A stretch of DNA of 64,000 nucleotides, taken from contig JAGYJP010000001.1 of NCBI GenBank assembly GCA_018402075.1, positions 682,001 through 746,000 of the forward strand, given 5' to 3'. Shown here in pieces: positions 3,344 through 34,326 of the stretch (positions are counted from its first letter, which is position 1; each line of letters begins with the position of its first letter). The DNA is from Candidatus Nanopelagicales bacterium (GTDB lineage Bacteria; Actinomycetota; Actinomycetes; S36-B12). The notes beneath the pieces are model-generated. The model did not search any database. It was given only the letters and a program-made list of their open reading frames with translations, and was not told the origin of the DNA. Position numbers and translations under genes: made by a program.

Positions 3344-3407
3344 CCCCCTAGGAATTCCGGGTTCTAAGGAACACGGATTTCTAGAGATTACGGGTTTCTA
3401 GGAGTTA
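3344..3407. repeat. Degenerate 16-17 bp tandem repeat with CTAG cores overlapping the modB 3' end
   Basis: Three adjacent units on the plus strand, CGGGTTCTAAGGAACA (3358-3373), CGGATTTCTAGAGATTA (3374-3390) and CGGGTTTCTAGGAGTTA (3391-3407), preceded by a related CCCCCTAGGAATTC. Each unit is a near-palindrome around CTAG/CTAAG. The last unit covers the modB stop codon. The role is unknown; it may be a terminator-like or protein-binding array between the mod and pst operons. Confidence 0.6.
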
Positions 3408-4213
3408 CGAGGCTGGCGCCCCGGCATGTAATACCTGTGTAGTGACACGAGGATTGCTACGGCGACGACCAGAAGCATGATGCTCAACGCCAAGGCACTT
3501 TCGCGATCTGATTCTAAAGCCGTGTACACCGCCAACGGCATAGTTTGTGTGGATCCTTCTAGGTTGCCGGCGAAGGTGATAGTCGCACCAAATTCCCCTA
3601 CTGCTCGAGCCCAGGCAAGAACCGTGCCCGCGACAAGTGCCGGTGCGATTGCGGGCAAGGTGATACTGCGAAATATGCGTGTCGTGGTTGCGCCATCGAC
3701 AGCAGCAGCATCTTCAATATCCCGGTCAACCGAACGAATAGCGCCTTCCACCGTTATCACGAGAAAAGGCAGTGCGACAAATGTGGCGGCAAGTATCACC
3801 CCCGCAATACTGAAGGGAAACTGAAATCCAGTGAGGTCATATATCCATCCACCAACAAATCCTCGACGCCCGAATGCGGATAGCAGGGCAACACCGCTAA
3901 CAACGGGAGGAAGCAGAAGCGGGACGATCACAAGTGCTCGCCACAGACGCGTGAACGGCAGGACATTGCGCGCCAGAAGCCACGCCAAAGGAACTCCTAT
4001 CACAAATGCCAGCCCTGCTGCGGAAACAGATGCAATGAAAGACAGCCGTAATGCTTCTAAAGCAGTTGGTGAACTTGCAATGGAAAAAAAGTTTCCCCAG
4101 GGCGCATCGAAAACGATTGCGAGTAACGGAATTAGTAGAAAAGCAAGTGCAATGCTTCCAGGAATAATCAAACTCGGTGGGCGCTGACCTGCGAGCCTAT
4201 TGCGCGTCATCAC
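3398..4213 (-). CDS. modB: Molybdate ABC transporter permease
   Basis: 271 aa membrane subunit of a molybdate (possibly tungstate) importer. It has about six predicted membrane helices, the EAA loop DAAAVDGATTTRIFRSITLP, and the ModB hallmark GEFGATITFAGN followed by TMPLAVY. It overlaps the upstream modA by 4 bp (ATGA). The stop codon falls inside a short tandem repeat array. No modC ATPase follows: the next gene is pstC, reading the same way but with its own control region. The ATPase must be encoded elsewhere or supplied by another transporter. Confidence 0.93.
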   Translation of the reverse strand: MMTRNRLAGQRPPSLIIPGSIALAFLLIPLLAIVFDAPWGNFFSIASSPTALEALRLSFIASVSAAGLAFVIGVPLAWLLARNVLPFTRLWRALVIVPLLLPPVVSGVALLSAFGRRGFVGGWIYDLTGFQFPFSIAGVILAATFVALPFLVITVEGAIRSVDRDIEDAAAVDGATTTRIFRSITLPAIAPALVAGTVLAWARAVGEFGATITFAGNLEGSTQTMPLAVYTALESDRESALALSIMLLVVAVAILVSLHRYYMPGRQPRNS

Positions 4214-4998
4214 GGTTTACCGAATCCCCATGTCCTCAAAATCGACTGGGCAGATGCCGAATACCGCACGTAGTCAACAAAAGCCTGTGCTGCCTTTTGC
4301 TTGGTTGAGTAAGTAACCGTGGCAATGGGATACCTGGTTGTTATATTTTTCCGCCCAGGGATCGGGATCGCTGTGACGGATCTTCCCGCTGACCTCGCAT
4401 CTGTTGTATAGATGATTCCTGCATCCACTTGATCGGCAATTACTTTGCCGAGCACGGCACGAACATCTAGTTCTTTAGTTACCGGCCTCACCGAAACACT
4501 GTTAATCGAAAATAACCTCCGGGTAGCCAAGCCACAAGGAACCTCAATCGCACACACGGCTGTTAATACATTCGCGGACTCAAGGTCAGTTAAAGTCTTT
4601 ATTCGTGCAGGGTTACCTGCCGGTGTCGCTATCACCATGGTGTTTTTGGCGAAGAGCAAAGGTTTGGGTGAGGCCCAACCGCCACGGATGGCCGTCCACA
4701 TGGTGAGCTCAGATGCAGTTGCTACTACATCAACCGGGGCTCCCGCGCGCAGTTGCTCGATAAGTGAATTGGAACCACCGAAATTGAATCTGACGGATAA
4801 CTTGGGATAGCGATTATTGAAGGCTTGCGCAATAACCGGGAACACTTCGGTGAGAGATGCAGCAGCGGAGACCGTAATCGTTGTTCGGGGAAGTGCTGCC
4901 ACAGCAGGATCCGGTTGATCGCCCGTTGCATGAGTTGCGCTCACGCCCAACATAGGAAGAAGGAATATCGAGAGAAACGAAGTGACAAATAGCTTCAT
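4210..4998 (-). CDS. modA: Molybdate ABC transporter substrate-binding protein
   Basis: 262 aa periplasmic-type binding protein with a cleavable signal peptide (residues ~1-25). It shows the ModA landmarks VSAAASLTEVF, RFNFGGSNSLIEQLRAGAPVD, NTMVIATPAGNP and DAGIIYTTDA. It binds molybdate outside the membrane and passes it to ModB. It overlaps modB and the upstream regulator by 4 bp at each end, so the three genes form one tightly coupled operon. Confidence 0.93.
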   Translation of the reverse strand: MKLFVTSFLSIFLLPMLGVSATHATGDQPDPAVAALPRTTITVSAAASLTEVFPVIAQAFNNRYPKLSVRFNFGGSNSLIEQLRAGAPVDVVATASELTMWTAIRGGWASPKPLLFAKNTMVIATPAGNPARIKTLTDLESANVLTAVCAIEVPCGLATRRLFSINSVSVRPVTKELDVRAVLGKVIADQVDAGIIYTTDARSAGRSVTAIPIPGRKNITTRYPIATVTYSTKQKAAQAFVDYVRYSASAQSILRTWGFGKP

Positions 4999-5387
4999 GT
5001 GTTGGGGGAACCCATTTCAATGACCACATTTGTTGACTTCACCAACGCGGATGCGCGCACTCCTGGCTCGAGCCCCAGATCTTCGGCGGCCTCGCGGCTC
5101 ATCAGGGATATCACTCGGTGTGGACCGCATTGCAATTCAACCAACGCCATGACGCCATCCTTTTCCACCCGCGTCACGATTCCGTCAAAGCGATTGCGCG
5201 CTGAAACTCGAAGATGCGGTAATTCCGGGGCGCTCTCCCGCATGAGCTTCGCAACATCGGCACCCCGGACGGACATGGGGCCCGATCCAGGCACCTCCGG
5301 TAACCGGCCATCGTCAATCCAGCGGCGCACGGTGTCATCGCTGACCCCCAGGAGTTCGGCAGCCTCAGATATCCGCATAGTCGACAT
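4995..5387 (-). CDS. HTH (MerR/excisionase type) - TOBE molybdate-responsive regulator
   Basis: 130 aa two-domain protein. Residues 1-50 form a MerR/excisionase-type helix-turn-helix (ISEAAELLGVSDDTVRRWID). Residues ~60-128 form a TOBE/Mop domain (SARNRFDGIVTRVEKDGV and RVISLMSREAAEDLGL), which binds molybdate in ModE and Mop proteins. As first gene of the mod operon it is likely a molybdate-sensing autoregulator. The ATG at 5387 appears leaderless, because a TATAGT -10 box ends 8 nt upstream. The direction of regulation cannot be read from sequence. Confidence 0.85.
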   Translation of the reverse strand: MSTMRISEAAELLGVSDDTVRRWIDDGRLPEVPGSGPMSVRGADVAKLMRESAPELPHLRVSARNRFDGIVTRVEKDGVMALVELQCGPHRVISLMSREAAEDLGLEPGVRASALVKSTNVVIEMGSPNT

Positions 5388-5424: not shown

Positions 5425-5531
5425 CCCATTTGAGTCGATCATGCGGCTAAAGAACCCGAATCTAGGGAGAGAAATGAGAGGAACGGATCGCGTGGCGGTG
5501 GGGAATTACCAGGTCAAACCCCTATATAAAT

Positions 5532-5800
5532 AGACGAAAGCCCCTCGAAGTATGAGTTCGAGGGGCCTTCGCTTCGGGTCGCCCGCTTATCAACCGATTT
5601 CTCGGGGCCTCGGCACAAATGTTGTTCGCCGCGCTCACACCTAAGTTTCCTCAAGTGCTGACAAAGCTTTCACGCTTCCCTCGAGCTTTTCCTCGCAATT
5701 TGCTCCGTCAACATTTCGGAGCCTCCAGTCTGAACCTTGCGATTCACACTTTCCGCTAACTGCGTTTCCTTGCCCGACTCGCACCTCGCGGTGCAATGAG
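5532..5800 (-). ncRNA. Candidate structured non-coding RNA, family not recognised
   Basis: A ~270-nt gene-free stretch whose minus strand forms a chain of local hairpins, four of them closed by GNRA tetraloops: GCACC-GCGA-GGTGC (5794-5781), TGAATC-GCAA-GGTTCA (5746-5731), CACTTGAG-GAAA-CTTAGGTG (5657-5638, eight pairs including two G-U) and CCGA-GAAA-TCGG (5605-5594). A fifth stem GCTCCG/CGGAGC has a 9-nt loop (5722-5702). It ends in a 10-bp terminator hairpin. Between the stems are repeated purine runs of the GGAAA type. A possible promoter, TTGCAG-18 nt-TAGAAA, precedes it. I could not find the conserved cores of RNase P RNA, tmRNA, SRP RNA, T-box or cobalamin riboswitches. The strand is chosen because GNRA loops and the terminator U-tract both appear on minus. 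Confidence 0.5.
5540..5566 (-). terminator. Rho-independent terminator ending the candidate RNA
   Basis: Perfect 10-bp stem (GCCCCTCGAA with TTCGAGGGGC) and a 7-nt loop. On the minus strand it is followed by TTTCGTCTATTTATA. No protein gene on either strand ends here, which itself argues that a non-coding transcript does. Confidence 0.7.
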
Positions 5801-5944
5801 ATATTTCTACTCCCCTCTGTCCAGTACCTGCAAGTGGTTTTGGAAAATAATTAAGAAAGTTCTGACCCTTTTAACACATGCATTCATTTTCGTCACACTC
5901 GTAACAATTAATCCCAGGAAAAAACCTAATGTGAACACGGTGAG

Positions 5945-34251: not shown

Positions 34252-34326
34252 TGGAGCCGCCTCGGGGATTTGAACCCCGGACCTACGCATTACGAGTGCG
34301 TTGCTCTACCCCTGAGCTAAGGCGGC
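34252..34326 (-). tRNA. tRNA-Thr (anticodon CGT), CCA end encoded
   Basis: 75 nt including CCA. The acceptor stem GCCGCCT pairs with AGGCGGC, the D arm region reads AGCTCAGGGGTAGAGC, the anticodon arm is CGCA-CTCGTAA-TGCG giving anticodon CGT (codon ACG), and the T arm is CCGGG-GTTCAAA-TCCCCG-like. The 3' half is the integration target of the adjacent island. Confidence 0.96.

Follow-up and report, generated by a model that had tools for sequence, protein, structure and literature searches.

A structured RNA family of an actinobacterial order, with a covarying kissing loop and a terminator loop resembling the tRNA-Met anticodon loop

Background

The described systems closest to the RNA reported here are the RNA polymerase-associated RNAs 6S, Ms1 and CoRP and the thrS operator of Escherichia coli. 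The Ms1 fold, according to the accessible part of PMC4191392, consists of one long hairpin, with a bubble at its centre, and of two short hairpins at the ends. It has been proposed that each species has one type of RNA polymerase-associated RNA, some of these types being still unknown (PMC11077062, accessible part). The thrS operator binds threonyl-tRNA synthetase (ThrRS) by means of an anticodon-arm mimic, and a Met anticodon-like loop switched it to control by methionyl-tRNA synthetase (MetRS), as stated in the accessible portion of PMC9976931.

Here, an intergenic stretch of a Candidatus Nanopelagicales genome was analysed; the window, i.e., the whole stretch of DNA considered, was 64,000 nt long. 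The original prediction for this region was a structured RNA with four independent GNRA-capped stems and its own terminator, which could be 6S/Ms1-like or a new family.

Position of the RNA gene and its neighbours

The RNA is situated on the minus strand between the starts of an MFS gene (5945, plus strand) and a MerR/TOBE regulator gene (5387, minus strand). As predicted, no protein frame was present, ORFs of at least 80 amino acids being absent from 5532-5800. That span had the position right, but its limits were corrected to approximately 5797 at the 5′ end and 5526 at the 3′ end, both placed from the promoter position, the model match and the terminator. The covariance model R1 matched the window at 5521-5803 with 176.8 bits, the window sequence being among the members of R1 itself. 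The features are as follows.

5838-5868, minus strand: AT-rich stretch (GGGTCAGAACTTTCTTAATTATTTTCCAAAA) upstream of the -35, a possible UP element (A+T content, 42 members)
5828-5833, minus strand: -35-like TTGCAG, 18 nt ahead of the -10; all 42 members have T at -29, counted from the aligned RNA start
5803-5809, minus strand: -10 region TAGAAAT; T at -6 in 42 of 42 and A at -5 in 40 of 42
5526-5797, minus strand: predicted whole RNA, approximately 270 nt (promoter position, R1 match and terminator)
5779-5796, minus strand: P1, 5′ hairpin with GCGA tetraloop (folding and covariation)
5681-5777, minus strand: 5′ domain, long-range P2 (5777-5770 with 5688-5681) and P3 (5764-5757 with 5700-5694), enclosing P4 and P5
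5731-5746, minus strand: P4 of the window's subgroup, hairpin with GCAA tetraloop; a shorter hairpin in other subgroups
5701-5722, minus strand: P5 hairpin, loop with the kissing strand AUGUUG (5714-5709)
5575-5680, minus strand: 3′ domain, weaker closing helices P6a/P6b around P7, P8 and P9
5637-5658, minus strand: P7 hairpin, GAAA tetraloop
5613-5629, minus strand: P8 hairpin, loop with the kissing strand CAACAU (5624-5619), complementary to 5714-5709
5593-5606, minus strand: P9 hairpin, GAAA tetraloop
5534-5572, minus strand: P10, terminator hairpin of 16 pairs with the 7-nt loop CUCAUAC at 5556-5550 (conserved pairing and terminator scan)

The 42 members shared a TTG-like -35, a spacing of 17-18 nt, a TAGAAAT-like -10 and a constant distance to the first hairpin, with an A+T content of 67% at -75 to -40 versus 51% at -40 to -1. 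A strict sigma-70 consensus scan reported no promoter at the start region of the window; the promoter is proposed because the start region is conserved across the 42 relatives. The RNA indeed has a terminator of its own, but this has 16 pairs (5572-5534), not the 10 bp originally given.

Copies that otherwise diverge share the motif GGGTCAGAACTTT upstream (window 5838-5868, L046, L173 and L239); it may be a binding site for an activator, or a UP element. Clusters of TGTGGA/GTGGAC repeats were seen upstream of the RNA promoter in ten loci (L151, L155, L157-L162, L164 and L166). We take these clusters to resemble actinobacterial DnaA boxes; TTATCCACA-like boxes, with one mismatch allowed, were absent from the same ten loci.

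Downstream of the RNA, on the minus strand at 3398-5387, are genes for the MerR/TOBE regulator, a substrate-binding protein and a permease, likely a transport operon with molybdate as its predicted substrate. A riboswitch or attenuator acting in cis on this operon would agree with the shared strand, the terminator approximately 147 nt ahead of the TOBE gene start, a matching neighbourhood in L042 and a more remotely similar one in L163. Against it, mod genes were near the RNA in 3 of 90 RNA loci (within 2 kb) and Rfam gave no riboswitch match. A TOBE protein search collected 41 loci, some of them short, of which one showed the RNA; this was L001, the best match (90% protein identity), and the other 40 had no RNA match beyond a 20-nt chance match. 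Moreover, L053 (the second copy of genome G001) points towards a convergent gene, and so do the copies linked to the epimerase. Control of the operon in cis is therefore very improbable. The Molybdate/MOCO riboswitch was rejected on the same counts, same-strand linkage to mod/moco genes being limited to 3 of 90 RNA loci and 1 of 41 TOBE loci.

Neighbours differed among the RNA loci and included MFS, TOBE/mod, epimerase, tgt and other genes. Within 2 kb, a convergent NAD-dependent epimerase-like ORF was downstream in 27 of 90 loci and a tgt-like ORF was on the opposite side in 14 of 90, with Pfam confirmation for one example of each. With such varied neighbours, the RNA is not the leader of a single kind of gene. 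The conserved start region, the terminator and the varied neighbours indicate, at the level of sequence, that the family is the product of a stand-alone gene, and action in trans, not on a neighbouring gene, is very probable.

Fold and covariation

The minus strand of 5525-5810 folded with z = -5.26, which none of 200 shuffles equalled, versus z = -2.07 for the plus strand, equalled or bettered by 7 of 200 shuffles. Four GNRA stems of at least 4 bp each, with loops GCGA, GCAA, GAAA and GAAA, were located on the minus strand of 5532-5800, as predicted. In 5000 dinucleotide shuffles the mean was 0.36 such stems (P approximately 0.001), in agreement with the earlier statement that chance is unlikely. 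The stems had been regarded as independent; instead, they belong to two multi-branch domains. Foldings of the subgroups concurred in P1, P2/P3 around P4 and P5, the hairpins P7, P8 and P9 as a second domain, and the P10 terminator.

Alignment A2 comprised 42 members with aligned stretches of 255-286 nt. Members were found by BLAST and kept if the hairpin core had at most 4 mismatches of 21. Excluded were loci without a body motif or whose hairpin core had more than 4 mismatches, 13 divergent or truncated loci, loci whose 5′ hairpin could not be recognised, one locus with unread bases, exact duplicates, the near-duplicates L061 and L083, and the outlier L088. Covariation, which had been suggested as a check, was strong: 64 of 82 pairs were changed on both sides (0 of 500 shuffles), and 83.1% of cells were paired, versus 72.4% in shuffled alignments and 35-45% with slid partners. 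For the whole structure, none of the 500 shuffles reached any of five pairing measures. Because shuffles ignore kinship, changes were reconstructed on a FastTree tree, giving 131 compensatory branches versus 10-29 with partners slid by 1-3 columns. Pair-breaking branches numbered 182 versus 123-164 with slid partners, which counts against the structure. RNAalifold in its default setting gave 28 pairs only for the mixed alignment, and more with subgroup alignments and the RIBOSUM setting. The existence of the family and its fold are established to the extent that sequence allows.

A covarying kissing loop links the two domains, the P5 loop (pattern [AGU]UG[CU][UA][GA]) pairing with the P8 loop over up to 6 positions. 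The combination is AUGUUG/CAACAU in the window and AUGCUG/CAGCAU, UUGCUG/CAGCAA or GUGC/GCAC in others. In A2, 85.9% of the cells of this helix were paired. Cells paired, cells changed on both sides and covariation score all beat 500 of 500 shuffles, and two of the five shuffle measures were not significant (163/500 and 300/500). On the tree, four compensatory branches over three pairs fell in the kissing helix, versus none with slid partners, together with 8 pair-breaking branches; kissing pair 102/193 was unpaired in 22 of 42 members. Outside A2, the seven full-length model matches of at least 90 bits were held out and read by eye (matches of 59 bits or less were not scored for this feature). 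Six of six kissing pairs were present in L105, L236, L237 and L238, and five of six in L098, L106 and L239; L105 had the combination AUGCUA/UAGCAU, which is absent from A2.

The complex fold, with its kissing loop and multiple GNRA tetraloops, would also suit a putative ribozyme or a trans-acting RNA that binds a small molecule. Such RNAs are hard to reconcile with the few invariant unpaired core nucleotides seen besides the GNRA loops and the terminal loop, and with the strong divergence of the body outside the order; we consider this reading quite improbable.

Distribution among relatives

Conservation in relatives was evident from L001, a Candidatus Nanopelagicales MAG, which has the RNA at the same place with 86% identity over query positions 1-310 of 311. 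DNA of the relative L047 matched 59 of 166 genomes of the order (E ≤ 0.001). Model R1, built from the 42 A2 members, matched 94 of 166 (E ≤ 0.01), many of them in the terminal hairpin only; at least 22 genomes had two or more separate R1 matches, some being hairpin-only. Copies may have escaped these genome searches, in which few candidates are scored for each genome. An RNA of this size, structured and with a long-range kissing loop, is missing from Rfam 15 although its model matched 94 of 166 genomes of one actinobacterial order.

In a phylum-wide sample, R1 matched 3 of 396 genomes, namely G001 itself and two in the hairpin only. When up to 2 mismatches were allowed, the hairpin pattern was found in 38 of 394 genomes of the class (reversed control pattern, 0); 20 of these 38 were not in the search of the order, and some carry recognisable RNAs. 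With up to 3 mismatches, it occurred in 9 of the 27 genomes behind the named loci, and the Nocardioides, Mycobacterium, Mycolicibacterium, Saccharothrix and Naasia genomes among the 27 lacked it.

Two members with small genomes (1.3-1.8 Mb), L248 (G143) and L250 (G152), had weak model scores of approximately 24 bits. Both appear to encode a shortened RNA that has a promoter-like start and, in the loop of its terminator, the sequence CUCAUAC.

Origin from a mobile element was rejected: the exact 21-nt hairpin core was absent from IMG/VR and there was no phage match, L047 had four plasmid matches of 28-39 nt (E 0.08-0.3), and the window stretch had none in plasmids.

Comparison with Rfam and with RNA polymerase-associated RNAs

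The window region had no match in Rfam 15 at gathering score, the only match of the window being a tRNA at 34255-34326, and the RNAs of 20 relatives gave two tRNAs only. Weak matches to BTnc005, ctRNA_pGA1, group-II-D1D4-3, ar7 and HOTTIP_1 fell short of the gathering score and were attributed to chance. The failure to match RNase P or tmRNA cores was well founded, RF00010 and RF00023 each scoring above cut-off elsewhere in all 8 Nanopelagicales genomes, which are relatives.

6S/Ms1-like, if meant as membership, could not be upheld: the 6S and Ms1 models were credible in none of the 8 Nanopelagicales genomes, and R1 was silent at three Ms1 loci (L123, L124 and L127, of Mycolicibacterium, Saccharothrix and Nocardioides). 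RF00013 (6S) gave 0 of 8 at E ≤ 1 and was above cut-off in 4 of 14 control genomes. RF02566 (Ms1) was missing from the matches of the window region at E ≤ 10 and had no match above cut-off in the 8 genomes, with 241.6 bits in the positive control, Mycolicibacterium; weak matches in G004 (E 5e-4) and G008 (E 0.26) were apparently coding DNA. Ms1 was also rejected by synteny, the HAD hydrolase/"inhibition of morphological differentiation" gene not adjoining the RNA. With no Rfam match, conservation in relatives and strong covariation, the other option of the original prediction prevails, and the RNA almost certainly represents a new family. No paper was recognised as describing it in literature searches (including PMC9130861 and PMC6542539, in their accessible parts), most subscription papers being outside their reach.

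Probable Ms1 RNAs were noticed beside the HAD hydrolase gene in L124 (Saccharothrix; 69.5 bits, Rfam cut-off 162) and L127 (Nocardioides; no model match). Motifs resembling ACCCACGCG and GCACGCYTGGTA are common to both and to Mycolicibacterium Ms1, and the Rfam Ms1 model looks too narrow. By mechanical ORF calls, the Ms1-holding gap beside the HAD hydrolase gene was closed or approximately 95 nt in L125, L128 and L130, the 3 readable ones of 5 Nanopelagicales HAD loci.

The RNA could be this lineage's abundant RNA polymerase-associated RNA, with the function of 6S, Ms1 or CoRP but no homology to these; putative binding of RNA polymerase is the chief rival to the tRNA mimicry discussed below. 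Consistent with it are the strong-type start region with an AT-rich upstream stretch, aligned lengths near the approximately 300 nt of Ms1, the 8 genomes without 6S or credible Ms1, the closed or short Ms1-syntenic gap, and the general proposal of one such RNA type per species (PMC11077062, accessible part). It is less consistent with the branched folds and kissing loop found in place of a 6S-like open-promoter bubble, or with multiple copies in some genomes, and it leaves the constant CUCAUAC loop unexplained. We rate it as unlikely.

Terminal loop and its likeness to tRNA-Met

Among the loci collected, 100 distinct hairpins had a loop that differed from CTCATAC at no more than two positions: 93 CUCAUAC, 5 CUCAUGC and 2 UUCAUAC, a constancy inflated by selection, since many loci were fetched by the hairpin pattern and A2 kept those with at most 4 of 21 mismatches. 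The A2 loops were 41 CUCAUAC and one CUCAUGC; the seven held-out members had 5 CUCAUAC and one UUCAUAC, L239 being without the loop. While the stem varies, with five forms of closing pair beneath the loop (AU, UA, UG, CG and GC) in the 100 hairpins, the loop varies only at places 1 (C/U) and 6 (A/G), as expected for Y32 and R37 of a CAU anticodon loop. All 100 hairpins had the form of an anticodon arm (7-nt loop with Y32, U33, anticodon and R37), in a search that favours this loop. Two loci (L153 and L154) had a CUCAUGC-loop hairpin apparently without an RNA body, perhaps a plain terminator between genes.

The inner 15 nt of the RNA hairpin were identical at 14 of 15 positions to the arm CGAACUCAUAAUUCG of tRNA-Met(CAU), versus 11 of 15 for the best tRNA of other identity among those compared. 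The chance of this likeness, approximately 4e-4 (10 of 11 free positions, approximately 45 tRNAs), is a rough estimate, uncorrected for the choice of this comparison after the loop had been seen. tRNA-Met was read in 7 genomes, all relatives of the window genome, and two further tRNA retrievals gave no other tRNA-Met. In six related genomes, a divergent tRNA-Met(CAU) gene with the arm CCGAA-CUCAUAA-UUCGG is approximately 200-410 nt upstream of the RNA; by its sequence we infer an elongator tRNA, and the six neighbourhoods are probably one event. ARAGORN labelled the terminal hairpins of L151 and L168 as tRNA-Met. G066 has CGGA/UCCG as the stem of its tRNA-Met arm, and this stem recurs in one of its two RNA hairpins; the second has the common stem CGAA/UUCG, and the tRNA-Met of G066 matches the common RNA hairpin at 12 of 15 only. 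CAAA/UUUG, CCAA/UUGG and CGAU/AUCG are further variant stems of the RNA hairpin. C38 of the RNA loop differs from A38 in the tRNA-Met genes read.

The same loop could act as the seed of a base-pairing sRNA on GUAUGAG targets, since the 7-mer is single-stranded and nearly constant and both variable positions retain G-U pairing with GUAUGAG. GGAG-N3-8-GTATGAG start sites, however, numbered 10 versus 10 for the reversed control pattern in 6 genomes, with none in G001 or G099, and no gene recurred in the 5 of 10 start-site loci that were translated. Antisense action at start codons was rejected, matches at start-codon sites being no commoner than the control, and the sRNA reading as a whole is rather improbable.

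Proposed function

Mimicry of an anticodon arm may be the point of the CUCAUAC loop, at a little short of an even chance; the loop could instead serve base pairing or a 3′-end binding protein. More fully, and more tentatively, our preferred reading is a stand-alone trans-acting RNA that presents a CAU anticodon-arm mimic, possibly to MetRS, itself a doubtful candidate partner. The body of the RNA would be a scaffold, and the terminal hairpin, as C32-U33-CAU-A37-C38, would imitate the elongator tRNA-Met at its anticodon arm. This hairpin would be bound by a reader of CAU anticodons, MetRS being the first candidate, and the RNA would thereby titrate or regulate the bound protein or sense uncharged tRNA-Met.

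As a speculative and unlikely elaboration, a free-standing RNA would use its own terminator as a decoy of the elongator tRNA-Met anticodon arm, with a stem that tracks the tRNA-Met of its host, and tune MetRS or initiation in trans. If true, it would be a trans-acting counterpart of the thrS operator. Since 8 genomes are without 6S or credible Ms1, the RNA may take their place, or it may be a sign of tRNA mimicry in trans. The kissing loop and the near-constant tRNA-Met-like terminal loop were both unforeseen in the original prediction.

Comparison with known systems

Like Ms1 (RF02566; MTS2823/scr3559), the RNA is an actinobacterial stand-alone RNA of similar length with its own promoter and terminator. 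The two differ in that model matches were obtained neither way, in their neighbours, and in the branched two-domain fold with terminator, which contrasts with the bubbled long hairpin of Ms1. 6S RNA (RF00013) is likewise stand-alone, structured and present in more than one copy in some genomes, whereas the present family is without an open-promoter-like bubble. CoRP RNA of Corynebacterium is also limited to an actinobacterial lineage and flanked by tRNA genes, as the present RNA is near tRNA-Met in six genomes; at 516 nt and reported in Corynebacterium only (PMC11077062, accessible part), CoRP is set apart by its description. With the thrS operator of E. coli, the family shares a hairpin loop imitating an anticodon loop. 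The operator acts in cis as the leader of a synthetase mRNA, whereas the RNA described here is apparently a separate gene with a putative partner (PMC9976931, accessible part, for the operator).
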